Assembly (NCBI RefSeq): GCF_003333265.1
Contig: NZ_QOLB01000079.1
Location: 1 to 64,000 of the forward strand
Origin: Candidatus Halocynthiibacter alkanivorans
Lineage (GTDB): Bacteria; Pseudomonadota; Alphaproteobacteria; Rhodobacterales; Rhodobacteraceae
Direction of reading: 5' to 3'
DNA: 64,000 nt
How positions within the stretch are numbered: the stretch's first letter is position 1; the number at the start of each line of letters is the position of its first letter. Position numbers and translations under genes: made by a program. The notes under the pieces are model-generated. The model saw only the letters and a list, made by a program, of their open reading frames with translations, was not told the origin of the DNA and searched no databases. Shown piece after piece: positions 6,281 through 42,769 of the stretch.

Positions 6281-7006
6281 TCAATTGCCCTCCAGCCGGT
6301 TTTCAAACAGGGTCGAACGCCGTCCTCTCAGAACGATATCAAATTTGTAGGCGATGCTGTCCAGCGGGATACTTGCGTTAAGATCCAGCCGGGCAATCAG
6401 TTGTGCGATCGCGTCGGCATCAGGCACCGCGTTCACAATCGGACATTTGGCAATCAGCGGGTCGCCTTCAAAATAGAGCTGGGTCACCAGACGCTGGGCA
6501 AAAGCCGACCCAAAGACCGACACGTGAATATGCGCCGGACGCCAGCTGTTCACCTGGTTGCGCCACGGATAAGCCCCGGGTTTCACCGTGCGGAAGAAAT
6601 AATAACCGTTCTCATCGCTCAGCGTACGGCCGCAGCCGCCAAAATTCGGGTCCACCGGCGCCAGGTAGCTGTCTTTCTTGTGCCGGTAACGCCCGCCGGC
6701 ATTGGCCTGCCAGATCTCGATCAGCGCGCCCTTCACCGGGTTGCGGTTTTCATCCAGAACCCGGCCATGGACAATGATACGCTCACCGATCGGATCGCCG
6801 GTATGGGCGTAGTTTTTGATCAGATCATTGTCGATCGCATCGATGTCACCCTGGCCAAACACCGGGCCGGTGATTTCGCTGGCGGTGTTTTCAAGGCTTA
6901 GCAGCGGATAGTTCGGCGACCTGGTCACCGAGGTTTTATACGCCGGAGCCAACGCCGGCGGCTGAATGCTGCGGTCACGTTGGTAAAATTCGCCGGGTTT
7001 TGGCAT
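6281..7006 (-). CDS. pcaH: Protocatechuate 3,4-dioxygenase, beta subunit
   Basis: Iron-carrying subunit, 241 residues from the chosen start. Start MPKPGEFYQ is preceded by GAGGGAGA at good spacing; an upstream in-frame ATG (7027) lacks this. Family motifs: an N-terminal YPLLSLENT segment, GRVLDENRNPVKGALIEIWQ, and PWRNQVNSWRPAHIHVSVFG. The latter contains two histidine iron ligands (HIH); tyrosines in GRYRHKKD and GAYPWR are the likely remaining ligands. It sits between pcaC and pcaG, the order typical of alphaproteobacterial pcaDCHG operons. Confidence 0.95.
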   Translation of the reverse strand: MPKPGEFYQRDRSIQPPALAPAYKTSVTRSPNYPLLSLENTASEITGPVFGQGDIDAIDNDLIKNYAHTGDPIGERIIVHGRVLDENRNPVKGALIEIWQANAGGRYRHKKDSYLAPVDPNFGGCGRTLSDENGYYFFRTVKPGAYPWRNQVNSWRPAHIHVSVFGSAFAQRLVTQLYFEGDPLIAKCPIVNAVPDADAIAQLIARLDLNASIPLDSIAYKFDIVLRGRRSTLFENRLEGN

Positions 7007-7042
7007 GTCGACTGTCTCCCTCAGCATCCGGGCAGGTCCGGA

Positions 7043-7420: not shown

Positions 7421-8201
7421 GGGAGACCTCCTTTAAAAACCCGACTAACAACCTGGCATAATGATCCGGTGCTTCAACGCAGGGCAGGTGGCCTGCGCCT
7501 TCAATCATCTCAAATCTGGCGCCCGTTATCAGATCGATCGTCGCTTTGACCTGGTCCGGCGGGCTGGCCCCGTCTTCACTGCCGGCAATGCCCAGAACCG
7601 GCAGCGTCAGCGCGGCGGTGCTGGCGCTCAGCTCACAGCCTGCGATGGCCGCACAGGCCCCTGCATAACCCTCCGCTGGGGTGCGGATCAGCATGCTCTT
7701 CCAGGCATCCAGATCGGGAGACTTGCGGAACTCGCTGCCAAACCAGCGCAGCATAATCTGGTCGGCCATCGCCGCCATGCCATCGGCACGCACATCGTCG
7801 ATGCGCAGCTGCCACAGGGTGGGATCGCCCATCTTCACCGCGGTATTGGACAGCACCAAAGCCCGGATCAGATCGGGGCGCTGTGCGGCCAGTGCCTGGC
7901 CCACCATACCGCCAAGGGACAGCCCGACAAAGACGCAGCCAGAGACCTCCAGCATGTCCAGCAGTCCGGCACAATCCTGCACCAGATCATCCAGCGCATA
8001 GGGGGCAGGCGGGCAGGACGACAGCCCGTGGCCACGCATGTCAAACCGGATCAGGCGCAGATGCTGCGGCAGAAGCAAGACAATGTCATCCCACAGGCGC
8101 AGATCGGTGCCGAGCGAATTGGCAAAGACTACCGGCGCACCGTTTGGATCGCCGTCCTGACGCCAATGAAGGCTGGCATGTTTAAGCTTTGCAATCCGCA
8201 T
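7413..8201 (-). CDS. pcaD: 3-oxoadipate enol-lactonase
   Basis: 262 residues, alpha/beta-hydrolase that opens the enol-lactone to beta-ketoadipate. Nucleophile elbow GLSLGG (in VFVGLSLGGMVGQ), oxyanion region NSLGTDLRLWDD, and a C-terminal catalytic His in GAGHLPCVEAPDHY. Its ATG shares one base with the pobA stop (TGATG), so it is the second gene of the operon and translationally coupled. Confidence 0.93.
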   Translation of the reverse strand: MRIAKLKHASLHWRQDGDPNGAPVVFANSLGTDLRLWDDIVLLLPQHLRLIRFDMRGHGLSSCPPAPYALDDLVQDCAGLLDMLEVSGCVFVGLSLGGMVGQALAAQRPDLIRALVLSNTAVKMGDPTLWQLRIDDVRADGMAAMADQIMLRWFGSEFRKSPDLDAWKSMLIRTPAEGYAGACAAIAGCELSASTAALTLPVLGIAGSEDGASPPDQVKATIDLITGARFEMIEGAGHLPCVEAPDHYARLLVGFLKEVSHV

Positions 8202-9370
8202 CAGTAGGGCAACCCCACATAATTCTGCGCAAACACTTTCTGCGCGGTTTCATTCTCGCGCAGGAACTCAAGCTCCGCACGCTGCATCTTCAGATCAAAA
8301 GCGCTTTGTTCGGGGAACCGGTGCAGCATATTGGTCATCGACCAGCTGAACCGCTCGGCCTTCCAGACCCGCGCCAGTGCTTTTTCAGAATACCGCTCAA
8401 GCCCTTCGCTGTCATTGTCTTCAAACTGCTGTATCAGCCCGTGATACAGGTAATAAATGTCAGAGGCGGCGGTGTTGAGCCCCTTGGCCCCGGTTGGCGG
8501 CACGATATGGGCGGCATCTCCACAAAGGAACAGGCGCCCCCAGCGCATCGGCTCACAGACAAAAGAGCGCAGAGGTGCGATGGACTTTTCGATCGAGGCG
8601 CCGGTGATCAGCGCCTCGGCCGCCGCATCCGGAATGCGCCGCCGCAACTCGTCCCAGAACATCTGATCGCTCCAGTCCTGGGGGCTGTCCGACAGCAGGC
8701 ACTGGATGTAATAGCGGCTGAGATTTGCATTGCGCATCGAACACAGCGCAAAGCCGCGCTCCGAACTGGAATAAATCAGCTCCTCGTTCACTGGCGGCGT
8801 TTCTGACAACACCCCCAACCAGCCAAACGGATAGGTCTTTTCATATTCGCGCCGCACCGACAGCGGAATGGTCTGACGGCTGACGCCATGAAACCCGTCA
8901 CATCCGGCGATATAATCACAGTCAATGCGCTGTTCATTGCCTTCCAGCCGATAGGTCACCGACGGCCTGTCAGTGCCGGCGTCATGGATCACCACATCTT
9001 CGACATTAAAGACAATCTCAGCGCCCGCTGCTTCCCGCGCGTCATAAAGGTCGCGCGTCAGTTCGGTCTGGCCATAGACGGTGACGCTGGTGCCGGTGTG
9101 TTTCCTGAAGTTGACCTCGAACTGTTCATTGCCATAGGCGATCAACGTGCCGTCATGAGTGAAGCACTCACGATCCAGCCGCGTGGCAACACCGGCTTCG
9201 CGCATCAGATCGACAAAGCCGACCTCCAGAATGCCCGCCCGGATCCGCCCCAGCACATAGTCCCGGGTTTTACGCTCCAGCACGATCGTGTCGATCCCTT
9301 TGCGGTGCAGCAACTGCGCCAGCAAAAGCCCGGACGGACCGCCGCCGATAATGACCACTTGTGTTCTCAT
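8201..9370 (-). CDS. pobA: 4-hydroxybenzoate 3-monooxygenase
   Basis: 389 residues, near the family length of about 394. NADPH- and FAD-dependent hydroxylation of 4-hydroxybenzoate to protocatechuate. FAD-binding GGGPSGLLLAQLL is near the N-terminus, the GCDGFHGVSR motif is central, and the second FAD motif LCGDAAHIVPPTGAKGLN is characteristic of PobA. First gene of the minus-strand operon pobA-pcaD-pcaC-pcaH-pcaG-BKACE. Its promoter region is shared with the divergent pcaQ. Confidence 0.95.
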   Translation of the reverse strand: MRTQVVIIGGGPSGLLLAQLLHRKGIDTIVLERKTRDYVLGRIRAGILEVGFVDLMREAGVATRLDRECFTHDGTLIAYGNEQFEVNFRKHTGTSVTVYGQTELTRDLYDAREAAGAEIVFNVEDVVIHDAGTDRPSVTYRLEGNEQRIDCDYIAGCDGFHGVSRQTIPLSVRREYEKTYPFGWLGVLSETPPVNEELIYSSSERGFALCSMRNANLSRYYIQCLLSDSPQDWSDQMFWDELRRRIPDAAAEALITGASIEKSIAPLRSFVCEPMRWGRLFLCGDAAHIVPPTGAKGLNTAASDIYYLYHGLIQQFEDNDSEGLERYSEKALARVWKAERFSWSMTNMLHRFPEQSAFDLKMQRAELEFLRENETAQKVFAQNYVGLPY

Positions 9371-9461: not shown

Positions 9462-10376
9462 ATGATCGACCGGCGCATTAAGTTCCGACATATTCAGTGT
9501 TTTGTCGAAATAAACCGGCAGAAAAGCATGAAAAAAGCCGCGGAAAATCTGTTTCTGACTCAGCCGGCGATCTCCAAAACCATGAAAGAGCTGGAGCAGA
9601 TAGTTGACGCGGTGCTGTTGACCCGTAGCCGGGCCGGGATCTCGCTGACCAAACAGGGTGAAGTGTTCCTGCATTTCGCTGAAATGTCAGTCGCCGCGCT
9701 TCAGCAGGGGCTGGACGGGGTCGAACAGATCGGCCGCAAGGGCAAAACCACGCTGGCGGTCGGCGCTCTGCCCAGCGTGGCGGCGCGGTTGATGCCGGCG
9801 GTGGCGCTGGAATTTGCCGCGCTGTCACCGGAAACCGTGCTGCAGATATCCGACGGGCCGCACGGGCATCTGGTTGAACGCCTGCGCCACGGCAGTCTCA
9901 ACCTTGTCATCGGGCGGGTGGGGGCGCCGGAGACGATGCAGGGCATCACCTTCACACAGCTCTATAATGAGCACGTGGAATTTGTGGTCCGCCCCGGTCA
10001 TCCCATACTGAAGGATCCGGTGCTGTCGCGTATATCCGACTGGCTGGTGATTTACCCGGCACAGGGCTCGGCGATCCGCCCGCTGGTGGAACGCTACCTG
10101 ATCGAGAACGGTGTCGGGGATCTGCCCAACCGGCTGGAAACGGTTTCTGGGGCCTTTGGTCGTGGATTTACCCGAAATTCGGACGCAATATGGATCATCT
10201 CCGCCGGGGTGGTCGCCAATGAAATCGCAGAGGGCCGCCTCACACGTCTGCCGTTTGATACCAGCATCACCAAAGGGCCGGTCGGCCTGATGACCCGGCC
10301 GGATACCACCCCGTCAAAAGAGGAGCAAATTTTCAACATCGCGGTCAAAAATGTGCTGAAATCGCTGCAACTCTGA
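9462..10376 (+). CDS. pcaQ: LysR-type regulator of the pca genes
   Basis: 304 residues. N-terminal winged helix-turn-helix (FVEINRQKSMKKAAENLFLTQPAISKTMKELEQ) and a C-terminal periplasmic-binding-protein-like effector domain. PcaQ proteins activate pcaDCHGB in response to the pathway intermediates beta-carboxymuconate or carboxymuconolactone. Identity rests on position (divergent from pobA-pcaDCHG) and on the N-terminal RIKFRHIQCFVEI pattern typical of PcaQ. GGAAAG lies at ribosome-site distance. It also flanks the TRAP operon, which it may regulate. Confidence 0.85.
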   Translation: MIDRRIKFRHIQCFVEINRQKSMKKAAENLFLTQPAISKTMKELEQIVDAVLLTRSRAGISLTKQGEVFLHFAEMSVAALQQGLDGVEQIGRKGKTTLAVGALPSVAARLMPAVALEFAALSPETVLQISDGPHGHLVERLRHGSLNLVIGRVGAPETMQGITFTQLYNEHVEFVVRPGHPILKDPVLSRISDWLVIYPAQGSAIRPLVERYLIENGVGDLPNRLETVSGAFGRGFTRNSDAIWIISAGVVANEIAEGRLTRLPFDTSITKGPVGLMTRPDTTPSKEEQIFNIAVKNVLKSLQL

Positions 10377-10585: not shown

Positions 10586-11632
10586 ATGACTATTTTAAAA
10601 TCACTCAGCACACTTGCGACCGGTCTGGTGCTCGGGCTTGTCTCAGTACAAGCCTCCTTTGCCCAGGCCGAGTTTGAATTCAAACTGCACCATTTTCTAA
10701 GCGCCAAAGCACCGGCACAGTCCAAAATGCTGGAACCCTGGGCCCGCGCAGTTGAAGCCAATTCGGGCGGTCGGGTGAGTATCGAAATCTACCCGTCGAT
10801 GACGCTGGGCGGACGCCCGCCCGAGCTGATCAACCAGGTGCGCGACGGGGTTGTCGATCTGGTCTGGACCGTAAACGGCTACACGCCGGGCCTGTTCCCG
10901 CGCACCGAAGTGTTTGAACTGCCCAATGTGTTCATCAACGACCCCAAAGCGGCCAACCTGGCGATGGCGGATCTGTTTGAGAGCGACCTGGCTGCGGATT
11001 ATAAAGGTGTCGAGGTGATGTTCCTGCATGTCCATGCGGGCAATGGCATCCATATGCGCGACACAGCGGTGCGCAGCCCGGCCGATCTTGCCGGGATGAA
11101 AATGCGCATCCCGACCCGGACCGGCGCCTGGGTGATCGAAGCGCTTGGCGCTTCACCGGCAGCGATGCCTGTGCCGGAACTGCCACCGGCGCTGCAAAAA
11201 GGCGTGATTGACGGTGCATTCATCCCCTGGGAAATCATTCCACCGCTGAAGATCCAGGAACAGACTGAGTATCAGATCGAAGGCGCTGGCAAACGGCGTT
11301 TTGGCACCACGGTGTTCCAGGTCTCGATGAACAGCGCCCGCTGGGGCGGCCTGCCGGAGGACATCCAAAAAGCGTTCCGCGACGCCTCTGGCCCCGAATG
11401 GCTGGCCGAGGTCGGCGACATCTGGCGTGCCTCTGACGAGTTTGGCATCAAAATGGCGCAGGAGTCCGGAAATACGCTGATCACGCTCAGCGACGCGGAA
11501 ACCGCGGTGTTTACTGAGACGCTGGAACCAGTGGTGGACCGCTGGATCGGCGAAGTCTCTTCAAAAGGCATCGATGGCGCCGCTCTGGTCGCCAAAGCCC
11601 GCGCCGCAATGGCCGCGCGTGCATCTGACTGA
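10586..11632 (+). CDS. TRAP transporter periplasmic solute-binding protein (DctP family)
   Basis: 348 residues with a classic signal peptide (about 1-26, cleavage near SFAQA). DctP-type features: an N-terminal LHHFLSAKAPAQ ligand-facing segment, a GGRPPELINQVRDGVVDLVW segment, and MKMRIPTRTGAWVIEALGASP with the arginine usually binding a carboxylate. GGGAGGA ribosome site. First gene of a three-gene operon; the TRAP membrane genes follow with a 1-base overlap and a 3-base gap. The substrate is probably a carboxylate. Proximity to pcaQ/pobA suggests an aromatic acid such as 4-hydroxybenzoate, but this is inference. Confidence 0.92.
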   Translation: MTILKSLSTLATGLVLGLVSVQASFAQAEFEFKLHHFLSAKAPAQSKMLEPWARAVEANSGGRVSIEIYPSMTLGGRPPELINQVRDGVVDLVWTVNGYTPGLFPRTEVFELPNVFINDPKAANLAMADLFESDLAADYKGVEVMFLHVHAGNGIHMRDTAVRSPADLAGMKMRIPTRTGAWVIEALGASPAAMPVPELPPALQKGVIDGAFIPWEIIPPLKIQEQTEYQIEGAGKRRFGTTVFQVSMNSARWGGLPEDIQKAFRDASGPEWLAEVGDIWRASDEFGIKMAQESGNTLITLSDAETAVFTETLEPVVDRWIGEVSSKGIDGAALVAKARAAMAARASD

Positions 11633-12141
11633 TGGCAGATGCTGACAACAAAAGCGGCACCGGACTTTCCGGTGTCGCGCGCCAACTGATTTTTGGCTGG
11701 GCCATGCTGGGCGGCTTTGTGCTGCTGGCGGTGGTCGCGATCAATATGGCCTCGGTGATCGGAGGTTTTTTTGGCAAACCTTTCCCGGGCGATTTTGAAC
11801 TGACCGAAGTCGGTGTCGCTGTCGCGGCGTTTTCGTTTCTGCCCTGGTGCCAGATCTCCGGCGGCAATGTGACCGCGGACATCTTTACTGCCGGTGCATC
11901 AAAGCGTGCGGTGGCGTTCTTCACCCTGCTGGGCTCGCTGGTGGCGTTGCTGTTCAGCGTGATCCTGATCTGGCGCATGTATGCCGGGATGCTGGACCAG
12001 AAAGAATACGGTTATACCACCGCTATTCTGCAGTTCCCCCACTGGATGGCCTTCGTGCCGATCCTGATTTCGCTGGCGCTGCTGGCGTTGGCCTCCGCGG
12101 TCACCCTGCGTGAGAACTTTAACTCAGTTGTCAAAGGTTAA
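11632..12141 (+). CDS. TRAP transporter small membrane subunit (DctQ family)
   Basis: 169 residues with four predicted membrane helices (around 20-42, 60-80, 100-122, 140-160), the standard DctQ layout, with the family's WCQISGGNVTADIFT-type loop. It begins in the stop codon of the binding-protein gene. It works with the large subunit in Na+-coupled uptake. Confidence 0.9.
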   Translation: MADADNKSGTGLSGVARQLIFGWAMLGGFVLLAVVAINMASVIGGFFGKPFPGDFELTEVGVAVAAFSFLPWCQISGGNVTADIFTAGASKRAVAFFTLLGSLVALLFSVILIWRMYAGMLDQKEYGYTTAILQFPHWMAFVPILISLALLALASAVTLRENFNSVVKG

Positions 12142-12144
12142 AGC

Positions 12145-13500
12145 ATGACGGACGCGATCTCTCTCGGGCTGGGAAGCCTGGTTGTTCTGGTGCTGCTGAT
12201 CGGCATCCGCATGCCCATTGCCTATGCGATGATTCTGGTCGGCGGTATCGGCACCATGATGCTGAGCGGGCCGGCGCTGGTGTTCAGCCAGCTGAAGACC
12301 CTGGCGTATGGTCAGTTCTCAATCTACGATCTCTCGGTGGTGCCGATGTTTGTGTTGATGGGGGCGATCGCCTCCAAGGCCGGGCTGAGCCAGGCGCTGT
12401 TCCGTGCCGCCAACGCCTGGTTGGGCTGGATGCGCGGCGGCACTGCGATGGCCGCGATTGCCGGCTGTGCGGGATTTGGGGCGGTCTGTGGGTCGTCGCT
12501 GGCGACCGCTTCGACCATGGGCAAGGTGGCGCTGCCGGAGTTGCGGCGTTATAAATATTCCGGCGCGCTGGCCACCGGTACCCTGGCTGCAGGCGGTGTG
12601 CTTGGCATCCTGATCCCGCCCTCTGTGGTGCTGATCATCTATGCCATCATCGTTGAGGCCAATATCGTCACCCTGTTTATGGCGGCGCTCATCCCCGGCT
12701 TGATGGCGGTGGTGCTGTTTATTCTGACCATCGCGATCTATGTGAAAATATGGCCCGAGGCCGGCCCCAAAGGCGGCGTGCCGGAGCGAGCGGAATTTAT
12801 CGCTGCGACGCTGGGGGCGGTGCCGGTTGTGGTGATCTTCGGACTGGTGATCGGCGGTATCTATACCGGGCTGTTCAACCCCACACCCGCAGCGGCGGTC
12901 GGGGTGTTCCTGGTGCTCGCTTTCGGGCTTCTGCAACGCAAGATTCGCTTTGGCGACCTGATCAGCGCATTGCAGGAAACCGCCTCTACAACCGGCATGA
13001 TCTATCTGATCTTGCTGGGGGCGGAACTGCTCAAGATTTTCATGTCACGCGTGGGCCTGCCACAAGAAGCTGCGTCCTGGATCGCTGGTTCCGGCCTCAG
13101 CCCGATGGTGATCATGGTGCTGTTGCTGGTGGCGCTGATCCTGCTGGGCTGCCTGATGGACAGCCTGTCGATGATCCTGCTGGTGATCCCGTTCTTCTGG
13201 CCGGTGCTGATCGAGGTGAACGGTGGCATCTACCAGGGCGCCGAAGGCTCGGGTTATGGCATGAGCACCGAGGACCTGAAGATCTGGTTTGGCATTCTGG
13301 CGCTGATTGTGGTCGAGCTGGGACTGATCACACCGCCGGTGGGGATGAATGTGTTTGTGATCTCCTCGCTGGCGCGGGACATCCCGATGATCGAAACCTT
13401 CAAAGGTGTGGTACCGTTTTTTCTCGCTGAAGTGCTGCGGGTGGTGGTGCTGGTCTCGTTCCCGGCAATCACTCTGTGGCTGCCTGGCGTGCTGAGCTGA
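12145..13500 (+). CDS. TRAP transporter large membrane subunit (DctM family)
   Basis: 451 residues, about 12-13 membrane helices throughout. Family hallmarks: an N-terminal IRMPIAYAM segment, AGCAGFGAVCGSSLATASTMG, AAGGVLGILIPPSVVLIIYAI, and near the end LGLITPPVGMNVFVI. It starts 3 bases after the small subunit. It forms the substrate channel across the inner membrane and completes the TRAP operon. Confidence 0.93.
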   Translation: MTDAISLGLGSLVVLVLLIGIRMPIAYAMILVGGIGTMMLSGPALVFSQLKTLAYGQFSIYDLSVVPMFVLMGAIASKAGLSQALFRAANAWLGWMRGGTAMAAIAGCAGFGAVCGSSLATASTMGKVALPELRRYKYSGALATGTLAAGGVLGILIPPSVVLIIYAIIVEANIVTLFMAALIPGLMAVVLFILTIAIYVKIWPEAGPKGGVPERAEFIAATLGAVPVVVIFGLVIGGIYTGLFNPTPAAAVGVFLVLAFGLLQRKIRFGDLISALQETASTTGMIYLILLGAELLKIFMSRVGLPQEAASWIAGSGLSPMVIMVLLLVALILLGCLMDSLSMILLVIPFFWPVLIEVNGGIYQGAEGSGYGMSTEDLKIWFGILALIVVELGLITPPVGMNVFVISSLARDIPMIETFKGVVPFFLAEVLRVVVLVSFPAITLWLPGVLS

Positions 13501-18948: not shown

Positions 18949-21900
18949 CTACAGATCAACCTCAACCACGCCACCGGGCGCGGCGGCACGTGACTGGCAC
19001 AGGATCACCGCATCAGCGCGCTGCGCGTTGGACAGCACGAAATCCCGGTGCTCAACCTCGCCCGAGACCAGCCCGCATTTGCAGACACCACAAATGCCGT
19101 CGTCACATTTCACATCCACATGCACCCCGGCCTCCGCCAGCACATCGGTGATACTTCTGTCCGCCGGCACAAGGAGTTCTCGCCCGGAGCGCGCCAACCT
19201 CAAAGTAAAGTCATGGTTTTCATACTCGGGCATCTCCGGCACCGAGAAATATTCCAGGTGCCGACCCTCTTCGGGATAGCCCTGACGTTCCGCGGCCTGG
19301 ATCACCGCCTCCATATAGCGCTCAGGCCCGCAGGTGTAGACGTGAAAGCCAGGCTGCCATCCGGCGAGCAGCTGATCCAAATCAGCCCGGCTGCCGCTCT
19401 CAGATACATGGATGCGCACTTTATCCGCCCAGGGCTGCGCCAGCAGCATGTCGCGAAAGCCCGCATCCTCTTCGCGGGTCACCGAATAATGCAGCTCAAA
19501 ATTGCCGCCCTTCGCGTGCAGCTCATGGGCAAAGGCCACCATCGGCGTCACCCCGATGCCGCCGCCCATCAACAGGGATTTGCCCGCCGGCTGCACCAGT
19601 GGAAAATGGTTGATCGGTTTTGAAATGAACACCTTGCGGCCCTCACTAAAAATTCGGTGCAGCAGGGCGGATCCGCCACGCCCGTCAGGCTCAATCAGCA
19701 CCGCGATCTCATAGCGGCTGCGGTCTGCAGGGTCGCCACACATGGAATATTGCCGCAGAAACTCCGGTGCCACCACGATATCCAGATGCGCGCCTGCCTG
19801 CCAGGCGGGCAGATCGCCCCCGTCCAATGCTTCCATCACATAACGGCTGATGCCGCTGGTCAGCGCGTCCGCTTTTCTGATCTTCACCCGCAGCACCGGC
19901 GAGTCCTCCTCGGCGTGGTACTCATGCGCCAGCCCGTCCGTATCGCCACGCGCCAGCCGACTCCGGTATTCCTCTGCGGTGATCATCTGCTGCCAGGCCT
20001 CAATGCCGGCTTCCCGGTCAATCGGGGACGGGTAGGGCCAGGGCGCCGGTGCCAGTGAGGCCGGATACACCGCCAGGGTCTGGTCCTCAGGCTTCACCAC
20101 CAGGTCTTTCTGCAGCGGCCTGCGGTTTACCAGGTTGGGTGTCGGGCGATAGGCACCGTCCTCGGCCAGCTCAATATCCCACCACCATTTTTTCACGTCA
20201 TTGGGTTCACCGTGGCCGGCGATGTCATCGAGCTTTGCCAACAAGGGCGCCGCCGAAGGCACATTCATCGCCGCCCAACGGAACGGGCGCTCGGAAAACA
20301 GCCCCTCCAGGTTCCAGGGACAGGTTTTCATACAACGCCCGCACATCGCCCCCCCGGCGGTGGAAATCCGGTAGCTGGCGCATTTCTGGCTGTCCGACTT
20401 CCAGATTTCATAGCCGTTGAACATCTTTTTCGGCCCGGCAGTGATGGCGCCCGCCGGACACTCGCGTGCACATTTGTTGCAGCTCTCGCAGAACCGCTGC
20501 AGCCCGAAATCAATTGGCTGGTCATGGGCCAGCGGCATGTCTGTGGTGACCACTCCGGATTTTAGCCGCGGCCCCAGGAACGGGTTCAGGATCACTTCCC
20601 CGATTCGCGATACTTCCCCCAGCCCGGCCAGCAGCAGCAGCGGCGGCTGCACCACATCACCGTCCATCACCGTATGGGCTTTGGCGCTGTAGCCCAGCGC
20701 ACGGATTTGCGCCGCAATCACCCCGCCCAGCAATGAGAACCGCAGATAGGCCCGCATCGATTGTGCCACCGCAATCCAGTCGTCGCCGGACGAGCCCTCG
20801 GTGGTTTCAAAACCCTGGTCGATGATCATCGATATGGCCTGGTCATGGGGCGGATCAATCGCGGTGCCGGTGGCGTCATGGGAATACCAGGCCCAGTCGG
20901 GGCAACGCGAAATCCCCACCGCGTCAACGCCGAGGAAATAGCTTGCCGCTTTGACATTGGCGGCATTGCGATCCGCATCTGTCTGAGGCGGCGCCTTGTC
21001 GTCAGGCGCGCCGCCCTGCAGTAGTACAAAGGCCCCCAGCGCACGTCTCTGCGCCATCGACGGTGCTGCCTTGCGCACATAATGACCGCCGCGCGCCGCA
21101 TCCTGCAGTGGTTTGCCCAGGTCGCCGAACTGGATGCGGGCAAACATATCGCCGCGTTTTGGCAGCCGCGGAATGCGGGTCTCGTCCAGATAGGTCGTAG
21201 GTTTTTCCACCCGTTTCAGCGTCTCAAACGGATGCGCCCCGTCCACGTAGTTGCGTTTTGCGTAGGGGTCCTGGTTCAGCGCCGACTTGGCCGACTCTTT
21301 GCCCAGCCACCAGGACGGCCCTTTTGTTTTAAACCAGCTTTGTTCCGCCATCGGTGCCAACGGCAGATCCGGGGCGATCTCAAAATCGGTGGTCACCGCT
21401 GCTATGCCGAAGCGCTTGCCGATCCAGGGCGCCACCAGCACGCCGTCTTCCAGCGTGACCAGACCCGCGGCCACTGCCAGCCGGTTCAGATCCACGTCCG
21501 AGGTGGTGGCGCTGTGGGCACGCGCGTTACAGCCCAGCACCCGCAGGTAATTGGCGATCACCGTGGCGGTTTCGGTGGCGCGCAGACAGGCCCGGTGGTC
21601 CTGAGCATTTTCGATCCACTCGTTGCCGGGCTCTGAGCTGTCGGGGTCGCGATGGTGCTCATAGAGGAACACTACAGCGTGGCCGTGGCCGTCAATACTA
21701 CTGGCGGGGGCTTCCATCGACTCTTTCAGATCGGCCATAATGAGATCAATCCCAGCGGCCAGAGTCTGGGTCTGCCGCTCGCGCAGATCCTGCGCCAGAC
21801 GGTCAATGTCCGGATTGCGCATTGGCTCAGACAGCATCAGATCCGGGCTCATTCGGCAGGTGCCCACCATTGAAGCGTCGGAAAAATAGCCGAACGCTTT

Positions 21901-22167
21901 CAGATGCTGGCTGCGTTCTTTCGGGTCTTGGGGCGTCTCGGACGGAACCTTTGCCACCAGACCGTCGCGGATCGCGTCCATCATGGCCTGATAATCGCGC
22001 ATCGCGTTCACCAGCGAGTGCGGCGAAGAGAGTTGCTCAAAGCTTAATTCAACCGAAGCGGGAATCCCGGAGAAATTCGCAACAGACAAATTTCTTTTCA
22101 AACGTTCAGAGGGGTAGAGACCAAGATGAACCGGGCGGGATTTACCCGAAAACAGATGCGTATTCAT
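18949..22167 (-). CDS. Self-sufficient cytosolic reductive dehalogenase fused to a flavin/[2Fe-2S] reductase
   Basis: 1072 residues. The first ~700 resemble the respiration-independent RdhA family (Nitratireductor NpRdhA, Comamonas BhbA): two related cobalamin-binding-fold repeats (YLRVLGCNARAHS near 205; QIRALGYSAKAHT near 500), then two [4Fe-4S] sets, CESCNKCARECP (Cys560-570) and Cys596 with CGRCMKTCP (Cys609-616). The last ~330 form an NAD(P)H-ferredoxin-reductase module (flavin motif RQYSM, nucleotide site GGGIGVTPM) ending in a plant-type [2Fe-2S] domain (CDDGICGVC from Cys1021). No Tat signal and no rdhB anchor gene, so a soluble enzyme removing halogen from aromatics with NAD(P)H electrons is inferred. 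AAGAGGA ribosome site. Substrate unknown; brominated or chlorinated 4-hydroxybenzoates or phenols fit the nearby pobA/pca genes. Confidence 0.9.
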   Translation of the reverse strand: MNTHLFSGKSRPVHLGLYPSERLKRNLSVANFSGIPASVELSFEQLSSPHSLVNAMRDYQAMMDAIRDGLVAKVPSETPQDPKERSQHLKAFGYFSDASMVGTCRMSPDLMLSEPMRNPDIDRLAQDLRERQTQTLAAGIDLIMADLKESMEAPASSIDGHGHAVVFLYEHHRDPDSSEPGNEWIENAQDHRACLRATETATVIANYLRVLGCNARAHSATTSDVDLNRLAVAAGLVTLEDGVLVAPWIGKRFGIAAVTTDFEIAPDLPLAPMAEQSWFKTKGPSWWLGKESAKSALNQDPYAKRNYVDGAHPFETLKRVEKPTTYLDETRIPRLPKRGDMFARIQFGDLGKPLQDAARGGHYVRKAAPSMAQRRALGAFVLLQGGAPDDKAPPQTDADRNAANVKAASYFLGVDAVGISRCPDWAWYSHDATGTAIDPPHDQAISMIIDQGFETTEGSSGDDWIAVAQSMRAYLRFSLLGGVIAAQIRALGYSAKAHTVMDGDVVQPPLLLLAGLGEVSRIGEVILNPFLGPRLKSGVVTTDMPLAHDQPIDFGLQRFCESCNKCARECPAGAITAGPKKMFNGYEIWKSDSQKCASYRISTAGGAMCGRCMKTCPWNLEGLFSERPFRWAAMNVPSAAPLLAKLDDIAGHGEPNDVKKWWWDIELAEDGAYRPTPNLVNRRPLQKDLVVKPEDQTLAVYPASLAPAPWPYPSPIDREAGIEAWQQMITAEEYRSRLARGDTDGLAHEYHAEEDSPVLRVKIRKADALTSGISRYVMEALDGGDLPAWQAGAHLDIVVAPEFLRQYSMCGDPADRSRYEIAVLIEPDGRGGSALLHRIFSEGRKVFISKPINHFPLVQPAGKSLLMGGGIGVTPMVAFAHELHAKGGNFELHYSVTREEDAGFRDMLLAQPWADKVRIHVSESGSRADLDQLLAGWQPGFHVYTCGPERYMEAVIQAAERQGYPEEGRHLEYFSVPEMPEYENHDFTLRLARSGRELLVPADRSITDVLAEAGVHVDVKCDDGICGVCKCGLVSGEVEHRDFVLSNAQRADAVILCQSRAAAPGGVVEVDL

Positions 22168-22460: not shown

Positions 22461-25400
22461 ATGATGAAAGCGTATACCCGAATAAAGCTGTCAGTGAAAT
22501 TGCCGGCGATCATGATCCTGATGGCGGCGATAGCTGTCGGGTTAACGGCGCTCATTTCATATAAAAATGCCAGTAAGTCATTGCTCGCAGAAGCCGAGGT
22601 CCGGCTTGAGACCGTCGCCTCTGCGCGCCAGTCTCAGTTAGACAGCTGGATCAACGCAACCGCCTCAGACATCAAAGCCCAGGCCAACAGCCCGACGGTG
22701 GCATCGGCTTTGCGCGGCTTTGGCGAAGGCTGGAGCAATATCTCCGGCGATCAGCAATCCTATCTTCAGGACTGGTATATTACGCGAAATCCGAATGAAG
22801 CAACGGAGCGCGAATTGCTGGTAATGGTGGATGACGGCTCCGCTTATTCACAGATCCACAAACTGTATCATCCTTATTTTGCTGAACAGCTGGCCGCCAA
22901 GGGATTTTATGACATCTTCCTGTTCGATACGGACGGCAACATGGTGTATTCGGTGAAAAAGGAAACGGATTTCGCCACCAACTTCCTCAACGGCGAATGG
23001 AAAGACAGCGGCCTTGGCATGGTTGTGCGCCAGGCTCTTGCGGCCACCGAGCAGGAAATGTTTTTTGACGAATTCCGCTCTTATGGGCCCAGCGCAGGCG
23101 AAGCCGCCTCGTTTGCAGCCGTACCGGTACTGGACCGCCGTGGCAAAGTAAAAGGCGTGCTGGCCTACCAGATGCCCACCAATGAGCTGGACCAAATTTT
23201 GGTGCGCCCGCAAGGTCTTGGACGCGCTGGCGAAGCTTTCCTTGTTGGGCCAGATTATTTGCTGCGCAGCGACCTGCGTCTTGGTGAAGGTCATGAGGCA
23301 CTGAAAATCAGGGTTGAAGATGAAGCGGTCAGTCAGGGACTTGCCGGCAATTCCGGGGTCGCAACAGTGAATTCAGCAATTCATGCCGAGTCCATTCAGG
23401 ACCTGACCGCCTATTCCAGCGTCTCCTTTTTCGGCACAACCTTTGCGCTGATCGTTTCGGTTCCCATTGTGGAAATCCTCGAGCCGGCAGCCGAGCTTGG
23501 TAAGACTATGATGTGGCAGGGCGCGCTGATCCTTTTTGGAGTTGGTCTTGTTGCCTTCTTCGTCGCCCGTGCAACATCAAAACCTCTGACTGCAGTAGAA
23601 GGTGCGATGCGGCTTGTTTCAAACGGCGACTATTCCGGTGAAGTCCCCGGGGCAGGCCGCGGCGATGAAATCGGCGGCATTGCCAACGCGCTGGATGATT
23701 TCCGTACCGCGCTTGCCGACGCCGAACAGGCCACTCGTGACGGGTTGTTCAAAGGCTCAGCTTTTGAAGGCTCATCTGCAGCATTGATGATGGTCAACCA
23801 GGAGTTTGATATCATCTATACCAACCTCGCGGTCCAAAAGCTGATGAAAGAGTATGAGGGAACGTTCAAAGATGTTCTGTCACAGTTCAGCGCTGACGCG
23901 TTGATTGGCACCAACATTGATGTGTTCGACCAGGAGCAGGGCAAACTCCGCACGCTTCTGGGCGACAGCGCGCGCATGCCATTTGATACCGATATGAGAG
24001 TGGGCAATGTGCACTTCTCGCTGTCGATCAACTCTGTGCTGAATGCAGAAGGCACCCAGGTTGGTTGTGTCATGGAATGGAAAGATGTGACGCAGGAGCG
24101 CAAAAATACCGCGATCATTCAGTCAATTGACGCCAACCAGGCCAAGGCGGAATTCTCCCTTGATGGCGCTTTGACTTCGGTGAATACAAACTTTTGCGAC
24201 ATGCTTGGCGCCAGCGCTGAAGAGCTGTTGGGACGCCATCACGACACCCTGTTTAATTTCGACCCGGCTCAGGCCGACAACAATGGAAGCGTCTGGGACC
24301 GTGTGATGGCCGGCGAAGCGATCTACGGCCGTTTCAAACTGGTCAACAATGGCAGTGAAACTATTCTTGACGGGGCCTTCAGCCCGGTCAACGACCACCA
24401 GGGCAACCCGTTTGCTGTCATCCTGATGGGCAACGACATCACCGCCTCGCAAACGGCGCTGGCCGAAGCCGAAGCAGAACGCCTGGAAATGCAGAACGCC
24501 CAGGCTATGGTTGTGGATCTGCTGCGTGTCGGTCTTGGCAAACTGGCCGATGGCGTGTTGACCGGTTCCATCAATGAGGCCTTTGCGCCGGAATATGAAA
24601 ACCTGCGTATCGACTTCAACCGGGCCTCCGGCAAGCTGCTTGAAGCGATGCAGTCGGTGGTGGAAAATGCCGATATGATCCGCGGTGAAGCCGCCGAGAT
24701 TTCCAATGCGGCGGACGATCTGTCCAAGCGCACGGAAAAACAGGCGGCGACGCTGGAAGAAACCGCTGCTGCGCTGGACGAGCTGACCTCCTCGGTGCGC
24801 TCTGCGGCCGAAGGTGCCAGCCAGGCCAGCACTATGGTGGAAGACGCCAAGGCCAATGCGGAAGAAAGCGGCATGGTGGTGCAGGAAGCGGTCAGCGCCA
24901 TGAGCGAGATCGAAAAATCTTCCGATCAGATTTCCAAGATCACCTCGGTGATCGACGATATCGCCTTCCAGACCAACCTGCTGGCGCTGAATGCGGGTGT
25001 CGAAGCCGCAAGGGCCGGCGAAGCTGGCCGTGGGTTTGCGGTGGTAGCCTCGGAAGTGCGGGCTCTGGCCCAGCGCTCCTCCGACGCGGCCCGCGAAATC
25101 AACGAGCTGATTTCGAAATCCGGCGGTCACGTGAAACGCGGTGTGGAACTGGTGGGCAACACCGGCCAGGCGCTGCGGGGCATCGTGTCATCGGTGTCGG
25201 AAATTGCCACCCATGTGACCGAAATTGCGGTTTCGGCCAAAGAACAGTCGGTAGGACTGGCGGAAATCAACGCCTCGGTGAACCAGCTGGATCAGGTGAC
25301 CCAGCAAAATGCGGCCATGTTTGAAGAGACCACCGCCGCCAGCCACTCCCTGACCCGGGAAGCAGAGACACTGAACTCGACGATGGCCAAGTTTGACATC

Positions 25401-25544
25401 GGCTCCGGTGCCACGCAGCAGCCGGTTGCGGCTCCGGTGCCGTTGCGCCAACCCGTCGCCACTGCGGCAGCGCCCGCCAAAGTTGTCAACGCGCCAGCCG
25501 CGCCGGCCCCCAACAATGATGCCGGGAGCTGGGAAGACTTTTAA
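22461..25544 (+). CDS. Methyl-accepting chemotaxis protein with Cache, HAMP and PAS domains
   Basis: 1027 residues. First membrane helix about 13-33, a large periplasmic Cache sensor, a second helix about 350-370, HAMP ([26 protein letters not shown]), two PAS-like segments (about 430-680), and an MCP signalling domain with the hairpin tip [21 protein letters not shown] near 835. The C-terminus is an Ala/Pro-rich linker ending in SWEDF, a match to the xWxxF docking pentapeptide that tethers CheR/CheB. AAGGAGATGA precedes the start. It is followed by cheB and cheD, so an adaptation module travels with the receptor. Divergent from the dehalogenase gene; the ligand is unknown. Confidence 0.93.
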
Positions 25545-25550
25545 AATCCT

Positions 25551-25579
25551 GGCCGGCGCACCGGGGTGGTGCGCCGGCC
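25551..25579 (+). terminator. Strong hairpin between the chemoreceptor gene and cheB
   Basis: Perfect 12-bp stem (25551-25562 with 25568-25579) and GGGGT loop, starting 6 bases after the chemoreceptor stop and 30 bases before the cheB GTG. TCAATGTTACTTTTTAAG follows. It could terminate most transcripts or protect the receptor mRNA, so that less CheB/CheD than receptor is made. Confidence 0.55.
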
Positions 25580-25609
25580 TCAATGTTACTTTTTAAGGAG
25601 GGATTTTCT

Positions 25610-26656
25610 GTGACGCGAAAAGCCCGGGTACTTATTGTAGACGATTCCCCCACCATGCGGCGCCTTTTGCGGGCGTCTCTGCTGACTGATCCGCGTATTG
25701 AGGTCGTCGGAGAAGCAGAAGATGCAGCGCAGGCACGGGATGCGGTGAATAAATATTCTCCCGATGTGATGACATTGGATGTCGAAATGCCCAATATGAG
25801 CGGGCTGGAATTTTTGCGCCGGCTGATGGCGCACCGGCCGATGCCGGTGGTGATGGTCTCCACGCTGACCAGCCAGGGCAGTGCGGCCGCGGTCGAAGCA
25901 CTGGCGCTCGGCGCCATCGAATGTGTTGAAAAACCGCGCTTCGGCAATGCCAGGGACACCATGGCGCGGCTCGCGGAAATCGTTCACATGGCGGCCAGCG
26001 CTCGGGTGCGTGAACCGGTGCCACGCCGGGTTATCGAGGCGCAGAATAACGTTACGCCCTTCGCCGGCTCGGAAAAAATTGTCATGATCGGCGGTTCTAC
26101 CGGTGCGGTGGAGGCGCTGGAAGTCCTGCTGCGCAGTTTTCCCGCCAACTGCCCGCCAACACTGATCACGCAGCATATGCCGGCGGCATTTCTGTCCAGT
26201 TTTGCTGCCCGGCTCGATCCGCTGGTGGCACCCAACGTGCGCCTGGCCAGCGAAGGCGAGGAAATCCGTCCGGGCAATGTTTATATCGCGCCGGGCGGAG
26301 ACTATCACCTCAACCTGGATACCAAAGGTCCGCTCCGCACCCGGCTGGTCGCCGGGCCGGCGCAATCGGGGCACCGTCCTTCGGTGGATTCGATGTTTCT
26401 CTCTGCGGTGCCCGTCGCCAATCGTGTGGTCTCCGCAATTCTGACCGGGATGGGGCGTGACGGCGCTGCCGGCATGCTGGCGCTGAAAGACGGCGGTGCG
26501 CGGACCATCGGTCAGAGCGAAGACAGCTGTGTGGTGTTTGGCATGCCCCGTGTCGCCGGGGAAATGGGCGGCGTGGAAACCTGGGCCGATCTTCAGGACA
26601 TTGGTAAAACTATCCTGACCCAGTGCACACGGCGCAAGAAAGTGAGAACAAAATGA
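25610..26656 (+). CDS. cheB: Chemotaxis response regulator protein-glutamate methylesterase
   Basis: 348 residues from a GTG start chosen because AAGGAGGGA lies 6 bases upstream; an earlier ATG (25583) lies across the hairpin and lacks a site. Receiver domain (VLIVDDSPTMRR, phospho-acceptor Asp in LTLDVEMPNMSG) and C-terminal methylesterase with the catalytic triad segments GGSTGAVEAL (Ser), ITQHMPAAF (His) and ILTGMGRDGAAGM (Asp). It removes methyl groups from, and deamidates, receptors. Its stop overlaps the cheD start (ATGA). Confidence 0.94.
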   Translation: MTRKARVLIVDDSPTMRRLLRASLLTDPRIEVVGEAEDAAQARDAVNKYSPDVMTLDVEMPNMSGLEFLRRLMAHRPMPVVMVSTLTSQGSAAAVEALALGAIECVEKPRFGNARDTMARLAEIVHMAASARVREPVPRRVIEAQNNVTPFAGSEKIVMIGGSTGAVEALEVLLRSFPANCPPTLITQHMPAAFLSSFAARLDPLVAPNVRLASEGEEIRPGNVYIAPGGDYHLNLDTKGPLRTRLVAGPAQSGHRPSVDSMFLSAVPVANRVVSAILTGMGRDGAAGMLALKDGGARTIGQSEDSCVVFGMPRVAGEMGGVETWADLQDIGKTILTQCTRRKKVRTK

Positions 26657-31594: not shown

Positions 31595-32446
31595 GTGAAG
31601 AAAGAAAGTCTCGATATTCCGGATGTGAGCGCCGCCAATGGCGCGGGGCAGACCGCTGGGCTGCGCGTGAACCATGCTGGGGCGCGGCACATTCAATCCG
31701 TTGGCCGCGCGCTCGACATTCTGGAGGCGCTGGCGATCGAACGCGACGGGCTGACTTTGTCGGAACTGGCCGGACGTGTCGCACTCAATCCTTCGACCTG
31801 TCATCATCTCATCGCGACGCTCGTATCGCGCGGATATCTGGTGCATCTTGGCCGCAGCCGCGGCTATGCCCTGGCGCAAAAATTACATGAACTCGTCCGG
31901 TTGGCGGATCAGGAGGCGGATCCCGCTGAACTGCTGAAGCACGATCTGCGCAAGCTTGGCGAGCGGCTTGGTCATGGGGTGCAATTGGCGGTTCTGAGCG
32001 AAACTTCCCTGCTGACAAAACTCAGATATCCGGGGCCAGACCAGAGCCTCAACGAGCCCGATGAAATTACTAAAATGACCGCACTGCACGCGACGGCCAC
32101 CGGCAAGGCGATCCTCGCCTGGATCCCGGACACCGAACTTGTGCGCATCATTTCGAGCAACGGTCTGAATGCTTACACCGACAACACTATCACCAGCCTG
32201 TCTGGCCTGGTCGAAGAGTTGAGGCTGGTGCGCCGGCGCGGCTACGCCATCGACAACGAGGAAATGAAAGACGGGCTGATCTGCATGGGGGTCGCGCTGC
32301 GCGAGGTCGGCGGGGCGGTGATCGCGTCATTTTCGGTCACGTTTCCGGCGGAGCTGGCCACAGAGGAATACAGGTCGAACTTGTCCAGGTCTCTGATCAC
32401 AGCATCGCACGACTTCTCGAACACACTGCTGAAACACAGCCATTGA
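31595..32446 (+). CDS. IclR-family transcriptional regulator
   Basis: 283 residues from a GTG start (GAGGAGAG eight bases upstream). N-terminal winged helix (RALDILEALAIERDGLTLSELAGRVALNPSTCHHLIATLVSRGYL) and C-terminal IclR effector-binding domain (TALHATATGKAILAW, RRRGYAIDNEEMKDGLICMGVAL). About 25 residues of N-terminal extension precede the helix-turn-helix. It is transcribed toward the catabolic cluster that begins 112 bases later and is its probable regulator. Confidence 0.9.
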   Translation: MKKESLDIPDVSAANGAGQTAGLRVNHAGARHIQSVGRALDILEALAIERDGLTLSELAGRVALNPSTCHHLIATLVSRGYLVHLGRSRGYALAQKLHELVRLADQEADPAELLKHDLRKLGERLGHGVQLAVLSETSLLTKLRYPGPDQSLNEPDEITKMTALHATATGKAILAWIPDTELVRIISSNGLNAYTDNTITSLSGLVEELRLVRRRGYAIDNEEMKDGLICMGVALREVGGAVIASFSVTFPAELATEEYRSNLSRSLITASHDFSNTLLKHSH

Positions 32447-32558
32447 TCACACCGCTATTGCTAAGAACTCCACCGTAGAAAAAACTGCCGCCAGGAAATC
32501 TACTGCGAAGAAAGCCATTGATAAAACTACATTATTTAAATGAATTGGAGGTGAACAG

Positions 32559-33722
32559 ATGACACTGCCCGACACTGTAACAGTAAGCGCGGACTATCCG
32601 GTCCCAGGCAAAATGAAAGCCTGGGTTCTTGGGGATCCCGGCGAGATTACCCTGTCTGAAAAGCCGGTGCCCGCGCCGGGCAGGGCCGAAGTTCTCGTCC
32701 GTATCGACGCGGTGGCGATCTGTGCCACGGATCTCGAAATCATTCACCACGGTCCGCCCGCGCAAATCCAGGGTGGCGATCCGTTCAACAAGAATTTCAC
32801 CCCGGGCCACGAATATATGGGGACCGTTGTCGCGCTGGGGCAGGGAGTTGATGAATACGAAATCGGCGAACGGGTGACGGTTGAGATCCATGCCGGCTGC
32901 GGCCAGTGCAAGCGGTGTCGTCAGGGCATGTACACCTCCTGCCACAATTACGGCAAAAACTATGGTGATGTGGACAAGGGGCACCGGGCCAACGGCTTCA
33001 CCACCGACGGCGGATTTGCCGAATACGCGGTGAACAACATCAATACGCTGGTGCATGTGGACGACAATATGTCGGACGAAGAAGCCACCTTGGTGGTGAC
33101 CGCAGGGACCGCGATGTATGGGCTGACGGAACTTGGCGGTCTGGTCGCCGGGGAAAGCGTTGTGGTCACCGGCCCCGGCCCGATTGGGCTGATGGGGGTA
33201 GCTGTCGCCAAGGCGCTGGGGGCGCAACCGGTTATTTTGACCGGGACCCGCGACAACCGCCTGGAGATCGGCAAACAACTTGGTGCCGATCATGTCATCA
33301 ATGTGCGCCGCGAGGATGCGGTTGAAAAAGTGCGCGAGTTGAACGGCGGCAAGGGCGTCGATTACGTCCTGGAATGTGCAGGCGCACCCAATGGGGTGAA
33401 CGAGGCCGCGCTGATGGTAAACCGTGGCGGCAAAATCTGTCTTGCGGCCTTTCCCGGCAACAGTCCGGAGGTGGATGTGGCCTATCTGGTCCGCAACAAT
33501 ATCTACCTCTACGGCATCCGTGGCGAAGGCCGGGCGGCGACACACAGAGCCGAGGCCTTCATGCGTCAAAAGCGCTTCGATGCCACGCTGATCCACACCC
33601 ACACCTTTGACATGGGCGACCTGCAAGAGGCGCTTCGCTATGCCAGGGACCGGGTCGGAGACGCGATTAAAGTGGTGGTGAAGAACAAACACGCCGAGGC
33701 GCGGCGGGTCGCGGCGGAATAG
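32559..33722 (+). CDS. Zinc-dependent medium-chain alcohol/polyol dehydrogenase
   Basis: 387 residues, MDR superfamily. Catalytic zinc ligands in AICATDLEIIHHG (Cys) and PGHEYMGTV (His-Glu); structural zinc cysteines in HAGCGQCKRCRQGMYTSC. Nucleotide site GPGPIGLMGVAVAKALGA. Strong GGAGGTGA start. First enzyme gene of the 32.5-45.9 kb cluster, followed after 22 bases by the molybdenum hydroxylase genes, so it may oxidise an alcohol group of the imported substrate. Sorbitol/threonine-dehydrogenase-like; the exact substrate is unknown. Confidence 0.88.
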   Translation: MTLPDTVTVSADYPVPGKMKAWVLGDPGEITLSEKPVPAPGRAEVLVRIDAVAICATDLEIIHHGPPAQIQGGDPFNKNFTPGHEYMGTVVALGQGVDEYEIGERVTVEIHAGCGQCKRCRQGMYTSCHNYGKNYGDVDKGHRANGFTTDGGFAEYAVNNINTLVHVDDNMSDEEATLVVTAGTAMYGLTELGGLVAGESVVVTGPGPIGLMGVAVAKALGAQPVILTGTRDNRLEIGKQLGADHVINVRREDAVEKVRELNGGKGVDYVLECAGAPNGVNEAALMVNRGGKICLAAFPGNSPEVDVAYLVRNNIYLYGIRGEGRAATHRAEAFMRQKRFDATLIHTHTFDMGDLQEALRYARDRVGDAIKVVVKNKHAEARRVAAE

Positions 33723-33744
33723 TCCGTACCAGGGGAGACGCACC

Positions 33745-34665
33745 ATGCTGACCTGCGATAACTATCACTTGCCGATCACGCTGCAAGACGCCCTGGTCCT
33801 CTGGGCCGCTGCACCGGAGGGCAGCCGGCTGGTGGCGGGTGCTACCGATCTGCTGCCCTGGGCGCGTGAGGGCAGGGCAGGGGAGGTGCATATTCCGGCC
33901 CTTGTCGATCTCTCACGCGTTGCGGAATTGCACGGATATACCACGGCCAAAGGCAGGGTCCGTCTCGGGGCGAATACGGTCTGGCAGGCGTTCCTGACGG
34001 ACAGCGCACTGCGCCGTCTGCTTCCCTGCATGCCGCATTGCTCGAGCTGGTTCGCGGATGACCAGATCCGGGAACAGGCCACGCTGGCGGGCAATCTGGC
34101 CAATGCCTCGCCGGTGGCAGACGGCACGCCGCCGGTGGCGGCGCTGAACGGTGTGCTTGAACTGGCGCATCTGGAAGGGGACACAATTGTCGCCCGCACA
34201 GTTGCGGTCAGCGACTTCGTGCTTGGTCCCGGGCGCACCGTGCTGGAACCCGGCGAAATCATCACCGCCGTGACCCTCGATTCCGCCAGCGGCTATGGCG
34301 GCTCGTTCCAGAAGGTCGGGCAACGCCGCTCGCTGGTCATTTCGGTGGCCTGCTGTGCCGCACTAGTAAAGACCGACAATACCGGATGCGTATTTGAGGA
34401 TGTCAGGCTCTCGCTTGGCGGGGTTGGTCCGCGCCCGATCCGGCTGAACAGGCTTGAAAGCGCGCTGCGCGGAGAACGTATCAGCCACGGGTTGATCGAC
34501 AGAGCCGCCCATATGGCCGCCGCGGAAGTCGCCTCCCGCAGCCGCCAGCAATATCGCCGCAGCGTGGTCGTCAGTTTTGTCGGGGCAGCGATCCGCGACG
34601 CGCTGGCCGACCAATCCGATGTGGTGGTGAATTTTCAGGATACGGAGGAGACGGCAAGTGTCTGA
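33745..34665 (+). CDS. Molybdenum hydroxylase FAD-binding medium subunit (CoxM-like)
   Basis: 306 residues of the xanthine dehydrogenase / CO dehydrogenase FAD-subunit family. FAD-binding segments LVAGATDLLPWA (residues ~31-42) and the TLAGNLANASPVADGTPPVAAL loop are present, plus a C-terminal CO-dehydrogenase-flavoprotein domain. Passes electrons from the [2Fe-2S] centres to FAD. GGGAGA start site; its 3' end overlaps the next subunit by 8 bases. Confidence 0.9.
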   Translation: MLTCDNYHLPITLQDALVLWAAAPEGSRLVAGATDLLPWAREGRAGEVHIPALVDLSRVAELHGYTTAKGRVRLGANTVWQAFLTDSALRRLLPCMPHCSSWFADDQIREQATLAGNLANASPVADGTPPVAALNGVLELAHLEGDTIVARTVAVSDFVLGPGRTVLEPGEIITAVTLDSASGYGGSFQKVGQRRSLVISVACCAALVKTDNTGCVFEDVRLSLGGVGPRPIRLNRLESALRGERISHGLIDRAAHMAAAEVASRSRQQYRRSVVVSFVGAAIRDALADQSDVVVNFQDTEETASV

Positions 34666-37611: not shown

Positions 37612-37678
37612 GAGGAATATGGGGGATTGCCTGAGCGGGCAGTCATCTCAGTTTGAAAATAAACCAAGGGAGGAAGAC

Positions 37679-38644: not shown

Positions 38645-38670
38645 GTACGACCCGCAAGGAGGTACTTCAG

Positions 38671-39162: not shown

Positions 39163-39164
39163 GC

Positions 39165-42759: not shown

Positions 42760-42769
42760 GGAAATGCCA

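Follow-up and report, generated by a model that had tools for sequence, protein, structure and literature searches.

The stretch of DNA analysed here (the window) comprises 64,000 nt, positions 1-64,000 of contig NZ_QOLB01000079.1 from Candidatus Halocynthiibacter alkanivorans (GCF_003333265.1), a member of the Rhodobacteraceae. Its reverse strand carries an open reading frame (ORF) with an ATG start, rdhA (18949-22167), whose 1072 aa product, RdhA, had been taken in a preliminary description of the sequence for a self-sufficient reductive dehalogenase. Family models, fold, individual residues and a phylogenetic tree bear out this assignment and, as far as sequence can tell, confirm that RdhA belongs to the self-sufficient catabolic reductive dehalogenases.

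RdhA matched the NCBIfam reductive dehalogenase model TIGR02486 in two stretches, with 199.7 bits (E 9.9e-59) for a cut-off of 160.35. Its best solved relative in phmmer searches of the PDB was NpRdhA from Nitratireductor pacificus (4ras; E 1.1e-159), aligned to residues 4-109 and 160-740, and the C-terminal third matched the phthalate dioxygenase reductase 2pia (E 9.5e-59, residues 756-1064). The NpRdhA match and the two stretches of TIGR02486 delimit an RdhA part (aa 1-740; 19948-22167, reverse strand) made of a vestigial N-terminal and a catalytic cobalamin-binding repeat. The match to 2pia, together with Fer2, delimits a phthalate dioxygenase reductase (PDOR) module (aa 756-1064; 18976-19902, reverse strand) with flavin and NAD(P)H domains and a [2Fe-2S] domain; the Pfam scan found both Fer4 and Fer2 domains. 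Alignment, Pfam and PDB matches recovered the domain layout that had been claimed for the protein, namely the duplicated cobalamin fold, two four-iron motifs, the reductase module and the terminal [2Fe-2S] domain. An insert at about aa 114-155 (21703-21828, reverse strand), of the kind described as specific to PDOR fusions in PMC10463259, was present in the four PDOR fusions that we compared with the window protein and absent from the two truncated ones compared (MAFFT alignment).

The structural comparison gave the same picture. An AlphaFold2 model, computed from 39 sequences that included the window protein, reached a moderate mean pLDDT of 69.2 and served for the comparison of folds; a Foldseek search with it retrieved NpRdhA chains at ranks 1-14 (top TMt 0.80) and 2pia at rank 17. 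As had been proposed, RdhA seems to lack a Tat signal, since no twin-arginine motif was visible by eye in its N-terminus (MNTHLFSGKSRPVHLG...), for which no signal-peptide program was run. The host genome also encodes the cobaltochelatase CobN (1594 bits, cut-off 822), which is consistent with cobalamin synthesis.

Comparisons of the deduced protein further establish its catalytic residues and cluster cysteines, together with its fold, domains and family placement. The eight cysteines of the first (Cys 560/563/566/570; 20458-20490, reverse strand) and second (Cys 596/609/612/616; 20320-20382, reverse strand) [4Fe-4S] motifs equal those of NpRdhA and are kept in all rows of an alignment of 140 rows and 135 different sequences, window included, that also served for the tree. 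Cys 1021/1026/1029/1057 are kept in all 136 rows reaching that region. Likewise, NpRdhA F291/S422/M423/Y426/K488/R552 are kept as F342/S470/M471/Y474/K536/R600 in the phmmer alignment with 4ras, R600 lying within the second motif, and S470, Y474, K536 and R600 are invariant in 140/140 rows. By contrast, NpRdhA K307/A419/N452 are replaced by A358/V467/V500. Valine occupies position 467 in 115 and position 500 in 134 of the 140 rows; at these positions BhbA from Comamonas and the Nitratireductor OM-1 protein have S/A, and three truncated proteins G/N. PMC7565698 assigns these residues roles in contacting the substrate hydroxyl, donating the proton and forming the second-halogen pocket. Judged from these comparisons, we are highly confident that the gene product is a reductive dehalogenase by activity class.

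Distribution and genomic context of rdhA

We searched 295 genomes of the Rhodobacteraceae, each with its own genus code and the window's genome counted, and found rdhA matches (E up to 1e-140) in 113 of them. Without G033, whose match is a truncated protein, 112 genomes remain, including the window's own; the gene is essentially full-length in 109, partial in G122 and G125, and in two pieces with a stop in G292. In a scan of GTDB species genomes, 380 stretches were found to encode the protein; the 80 best, showing 67-71% identity over the best segment and rich in Ruegeria, were examined as named loci with flanks of up to 10 kb. At least 80% of RdhA is also encoded in eight plasmid records, five of them at 68-69% identity and the others from Aminobacter (58%), Nitratireductor OM-1 (50.2%) and Comamonas pBHB (BhbA, 50.0% over its full length). 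A passage on Chen et al. in PMC13101508 describes a wide distribution of putative bhbA homologues within the Roseobacter clade.

The enzyme type postulated in the preliminary description was also supported by a FastTree tree of the 140 rows, rooted on the three truncated proteins, one of which (L097) sits on a long branch. BhbA and the OM-1 protein diverge first. A single unresolved fork then gives rise to Aminobacter and to two groups, one of four and one of 130 members. The window RdhA lies within the group of 130, where its exact position is weakly supported (87-89).

In the window, rdhA is a lone gene, flanked by a divergent chemoreceptor gene (22461, forward strand) and a convergent glutamate-dehydrogenase-type gene (16978, forward strand), and separated from pobA by 9.6 kb containing unrelated genes. 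The chemoreceptor, which is not a conserved neighbour of rdhA, has 1027 aa (dCache, HAMP, PAS, MCP signalling) and is followed by CheB (22461-26656, forward strand). An Rfam scan of the window at gathering thresholds detected no riboswitch or other known RNA, and a scan for promoters and terminators near rdhA gave results similar to those of shuffled sequences (1 against a mean of 1.5 and 5 against a mean of 3.7). We considered, and rejected, an operon or conserved gene cluster around rdhA, because its neighbours are scattered both in the 80 named loci and in 106 relatives.

No MarR gene was seen adjoining rdhA in the window. Such a gene does adjoin rdhA on the Aminobacter and Jannaschia plasmids, with TRAP genes beyond it in Aminobacter. 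A MarR-like gene also occurs near rdhA in 17 relatives (L187, L191, L205, L210, L212, L217, L223, L225, L227, L229, L232-L236, L238 and L239), 12 of which sit in one tree group of 16. In ten of them, Cys takes the place of Val at second-halogen pocket position 467, compared to 5 of 92 others, an association for which shared descent may be the cause.

A TRAP system encoded in the window (10586-13500) had been suggested as a possible importer of the RdhA substrate, which we could not support. DctM-like genes were found near rdhA in 6/80 named loci and, with 34-48% identity, in 8 of 113 stretches from 111 genomes. In a sample of 20 of the 199 genomes containing pobA (see below), hand-picked near the top of the listing, the window TRAP genes were matched near pobA in two (DctM), three (DctP) and none (DctQ) of the loci. 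They are thus regular neighbours of neither rdhA nor pobA, and an importer role can be claimed for neither. The LysR gene at 9462-10376 does regularly accompany pobA, being matched with 51-71% identity in 8/20 of these loci and remotely in one more.

The link to pobA and the proposed function

The window contains on its reverse strand pobA, for 4-hydroxybenzoate 3-monooxygenase (8201-9370; TIGR02360, 685.2 bits, cut-off 538.7), which is not in an operon with rdhA, as well as pcaH (6281-7027; Pfam and TIGR02422, 363.8 bits, cut-off 296.4) and pcaG (5657-6277; Pfam), for protocatechuate 3,4-dioxygenase. A complete PcaHGBCD set had been described together with PobA at 9-16 kb from rdhA; family models support PobA, PcaH and PcaG, but the alleged PcaB, PcaD and PcaC appeared only as a Lyase_1 protein, an alpha/beta hydrolase and a 125-aa ORF, whose identities were not confirmed.

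Of the 295 genomes, 199 encode a PobA (TIGR02360, E up to 1e-100) and 181 a PcaH (TIGR02422, E up to 1e-60). Leaving out G033, pobA is commoner in genomes with rdhA (89/112) than in those without it (109/182; Fisher 5e-4, uncorrected for kinship or genome size). Among the 89 pobA matches, four fall below the curated cut-off of the family, three of them being contig-edge fragments by position. Setting the window aside, we compared by eye the same-contig placement of both genes in the remaining 88 genomes. They lie within 1 kb of each other in three (90, 247 and 365 bp, the 90-bp pair on the same strand), when at most 0.146 would be expected by chance (Poisson P 4.6e-4), and five genomes have them within 20 kb (no more than 1.015 by chance, P 0.0039). 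The tree contains four of these five genomes, at different places, so that the linkages look independent of each other. As a control, hmgA, which acts downstream of homogentisate, was within 20 kb of rdhA in none of the 74 genomes with a placed match (80 examined), the nearest being at 85.8 kb. On related plasmids, a class III extradiol dioxygenase gene and pobA lie 1.9 and 3.4 kb downstream of rdhA (Nitratireductor pOM-1), and ligA with its partner is found near bhbA (Comamonas pBHB). A gene annotated as pcaD lies ca. 9.5 kb upstream of rdhA on the Ruegeria TM1040 megaplasmid. No report of rdhA-pobA adjacency across genera appeared among the papers listed by searches of the open-access literature. 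As a separate observation, G192 carries pobA- and LigA/LigB-like genes (L138, 537-8638) at 14-17 kb from rdhA, resembling the set of the OM-1 plasmid, with a MarR-like gene on the opposite side of rdhA (L246).

We consider it very likely that RdhA is a soluble, self-sufficient and probably oxygen-tolerant reductive dehalogenase that removes bromine or iodine from natural phenols. The flavin in the PDOR module would accept a hydride from NAD(P)H, and electrons would pass singly through the [2Fe-2S] and then both [4Fe-4S] clusters to cobalamin in its base-off state. The cobalt would take the bromine (or iodine) ortho to the phenolic hydroxyl, to be released as halide, while Y474, aided by K536 and R600, would protonate the ring carbon. 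The enzyme probably acts on 4-hydroxyaryl compounds carrying bromine or iodine, for example brominated 4-hydroxybenzoate, and the dehalogenated product would then follow ordinary aromatic catabolism, here possibly PobA and then PcaHG. We infer the electron path, halogen preference and oxygen tolerance from characterised relatives, by analogy with which a preference for bromine is likely.

Several observations weigh against this proposal. The Pfam dehalogenase domain PF13486, the one named in PMC13101508, was absent from the 15 Pfam matches of RdhA (E up to 1); we do not take this library label as defining for the fusion type. The pocket at the positions of NpRdhA A419 and N452 is unlike those of both BhbA and NpRdhA. 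The window neighbours of rdhA recur at only 0-6 of 80 other loci, the largest cluster being that of DctM (seven loci, window included). In the 106 relatives, the immediate upstream gene is MarR_2 in 13 and, besides overlapping MarR-type models, no family exceeds five; downstream, the commonest family, DUF3572, appears in only 7/106. The pobA gene was found in the flanks of a single one of the 80 named loci, with pcaHG in one other, and 23 of the 112 genomes with rdhA show no pobA. There is no linkage within 20 kb in 83 of the 88 genomes, and no excess over chance at 100 kb (six against 4.67 expected). A second control, paaA, lay within 20 kb of rdhA in 2 of 60 genomes with a match (80 examined), which weakens the 20-kb signal, and pobA did not differ significantly from hmgA and paaA pooled, either at 1 kb (one-sided Fisher P 0.061) or at 20 kb (P 0.089).

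Taken together, these data lend modest support to a functional tie between rdhA and pobA that is seldom visible as physical linkage. The earlier idea that dehalogenated 4-hydroxybenzoate feeds PobA finds backing in the few adjacencies and in related plasmids, but not in the window, where rdhA is a lone gene, nor in most relatives, where the two genes are unlinked. We regard this route as plausible, if weakly supported, and as the main physiological route of the window RdhA it falls slightly short of an even bet. We attach comparable weight, also a little below the midpoint, to the same enzyme serving instead in the debromination or deiodination of other marine phenols, such as bromophenols or bromotyrosine-derived 3-bromo-4-hydroxyphenylacetate, for detoxification or in pathways not involving 4-hydroxybenzoate. 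According to PMC10463259, JtRdhA from Jhaorihella thermophila converts 3-bromo-4-hydroxyphenylacetate and 3,5-dibromo-4-hydroxybenzoate at equal speed, and 2-iodophenol and 2,4,6-triiodophenol at 66-72%. The mostly unshared neighbours of rdhA, the rdhA genomes without visible pobA and the V467/V500 pocket of the marine branch, unlike the S and A of BhbA, also fit such a role; the pobA adjacencies, even if few, the higher frequency of pobA in rdhA genomes and the distance to hmgA speak against it.

Two further possibilities concern the reaction itself. Chlorinated aromatics had been named as substrates together with brominated ones, and the related truncated NpRdhA does act on 3,5-dichloro- and 3-chloro-4-hydroxybenzoate, as stated in PMC7565698. 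JtRdhA, however, which has the same architecture as the window protein, is described in PMC10463259 as turning over none of the chlorinated or fluorinated compounds tested, the chlorinated ones being inhibitors; removal of chlorine by the window RdhA is thus disfavoured, and we consider it unlikely. It is more improbable still, to the point of being hardly tenable, that RdhA is an epoxyqueuosine-reductase-like or other cobalamin/Fe-S protein without dehalogenase activity. QueG is also placed among the class III cobalamin enzymes (PMC10463259), PF13486 is unmatched and the QueG model TIGR00276 does give a weak match, but its 25.1 bits are far under the cut-off of 200, whereas TIGR02486 surpasses its own. 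Moreover, the catalytic residues equal those of NpRdhA and the fusion to PDOR is as in BhbA and JtRdhA. The grouping with QueG-like proteins that the preliminary description had put forward as grounds for dismissing a dehalogenase was thus not found.

More tentatively, the preferred interpretation of RdhA as a debrominase or deiodinase might extend to an operon-free enzyme that is common in marine Rhodobacteraceae-type genera (112/295), has its own V467/V500 pocket and has repeatedly landed beside pobA, as a plug-in to 4-hydroxybenzoate catabolism. If true, the aerobic removal of natural organobromine would be a widespread addition to this catabolism in the surface ocean. With rdhA present in more than one third of the sampled genera, the idea that these bacteria routinely debrominate or deiodinate natural phenols in air becomes testable, and the 4-hydroxybenzoate route could be examined first in those few genomes where rdhA and pobA are adjacent.

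Other features of the window

The forward strand contains a sugar-acid-like catabolic cluster (31595-45945) encoding an IclR regulator, a zinc alcohol dehydrogenase, a molybdenum hydroxylase, a TctCBA transporter, a thiamine pyrophosphate enzyme, an aldehyde dehydrogenase and an IlvD/EDD dehydratase. The molybdenum hydroxylase (33745-37611, forward strand) shows an odd layout, with a FAD subunit followed by an ORF of 628 aa that joins [2Fe-2S] domains to the first molybdopterin domain, and the second molybdopterin domain in a separate, overlapping ORF. It has matches in 7 of 41 genomes, window included (E up to 1e-100). Because the other six are in open frames of 926-1226 codons, one with an internal stop (G004), the split may be specific to the window or a frameshift; the nearest relative (G014, 69% identity) has an open frame of 985 codons. 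On the reverse strand, an EF-G-like protein (59622-61706) matches a GTP-binding domain model of 188 positions over residues 41-305, a stretching that suggests an insertion in this domain.

Comparison with characterised dehalogenases

A self-sufficient dehalogenase from a marine bacterium has already been published, JtRdhA (WP_104007082; PMC10463259), and the window RdhA is compared with it by that description. They share a marine host, the duplicated cobalamin domain, two [4Fe-4S] clusters, the fused PDOR, an insert with respect to NpRdhA, the absence of a Tat signal and the equivalents of Y426/K488/R552. JtRdhA is driven by NADPH and turns over brominated and iodinated phenols, with tight coupling even in air, and an engineered Escherichia coli W with JtRdhA grew on 3-bromo-4-hydroxyphenylacetate; these properties favour the chemistry proposed here for the window RdhA. 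BhbA (Comamonas sp. 7D-2) is likewise a full-length RdhA-PDOR fusion with the same catalytic residues, but it is encoded on a conjugative plasmid, pBHB, where a single gene separates bhbA from ligA and its partner upstream, and its pocket has S/S/A instead of A/V/V at positions 358/467/500. NpRdhA (4ras, 6zxu, 6zxx, 6zy0 and 6zy1) shows 45% identity over 402 aligned residues (window residues 263-669) and shares S422, Y426, K488 and R552, but lacks the PDOR module and differs in K307/A419/N452.

Ros_A3X954 from Roseobacter sp. MED193 (PMC13101508) is also a reductive dehalogenase of the Roseobacter group without Tat signal, and debrominates 2,6-dibromophenol; it is, however, reported as highly oxygen-sensitive, and its [4Fe-4S] motifs are at residues 283-345, so that it probably is shorter and lacks the duplication. 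Respiratory enzymes of the PceA type are expected to carry the Tat signal that we did not see by eye in RdhA, and to have a membrane anchor, RdhB, encoded next to them; the genes on either side of rdhA are those for the chemoreceptor and the glutamate-dehydrogenase-type protein, no search aimed at RdhB having been made. The window protein thus adds one further example to an already known type, that of JtRdhA and BhbA, which is common in marine bacteria and whose biochemistry has been worked out on these two enzymes and NpRdhA.

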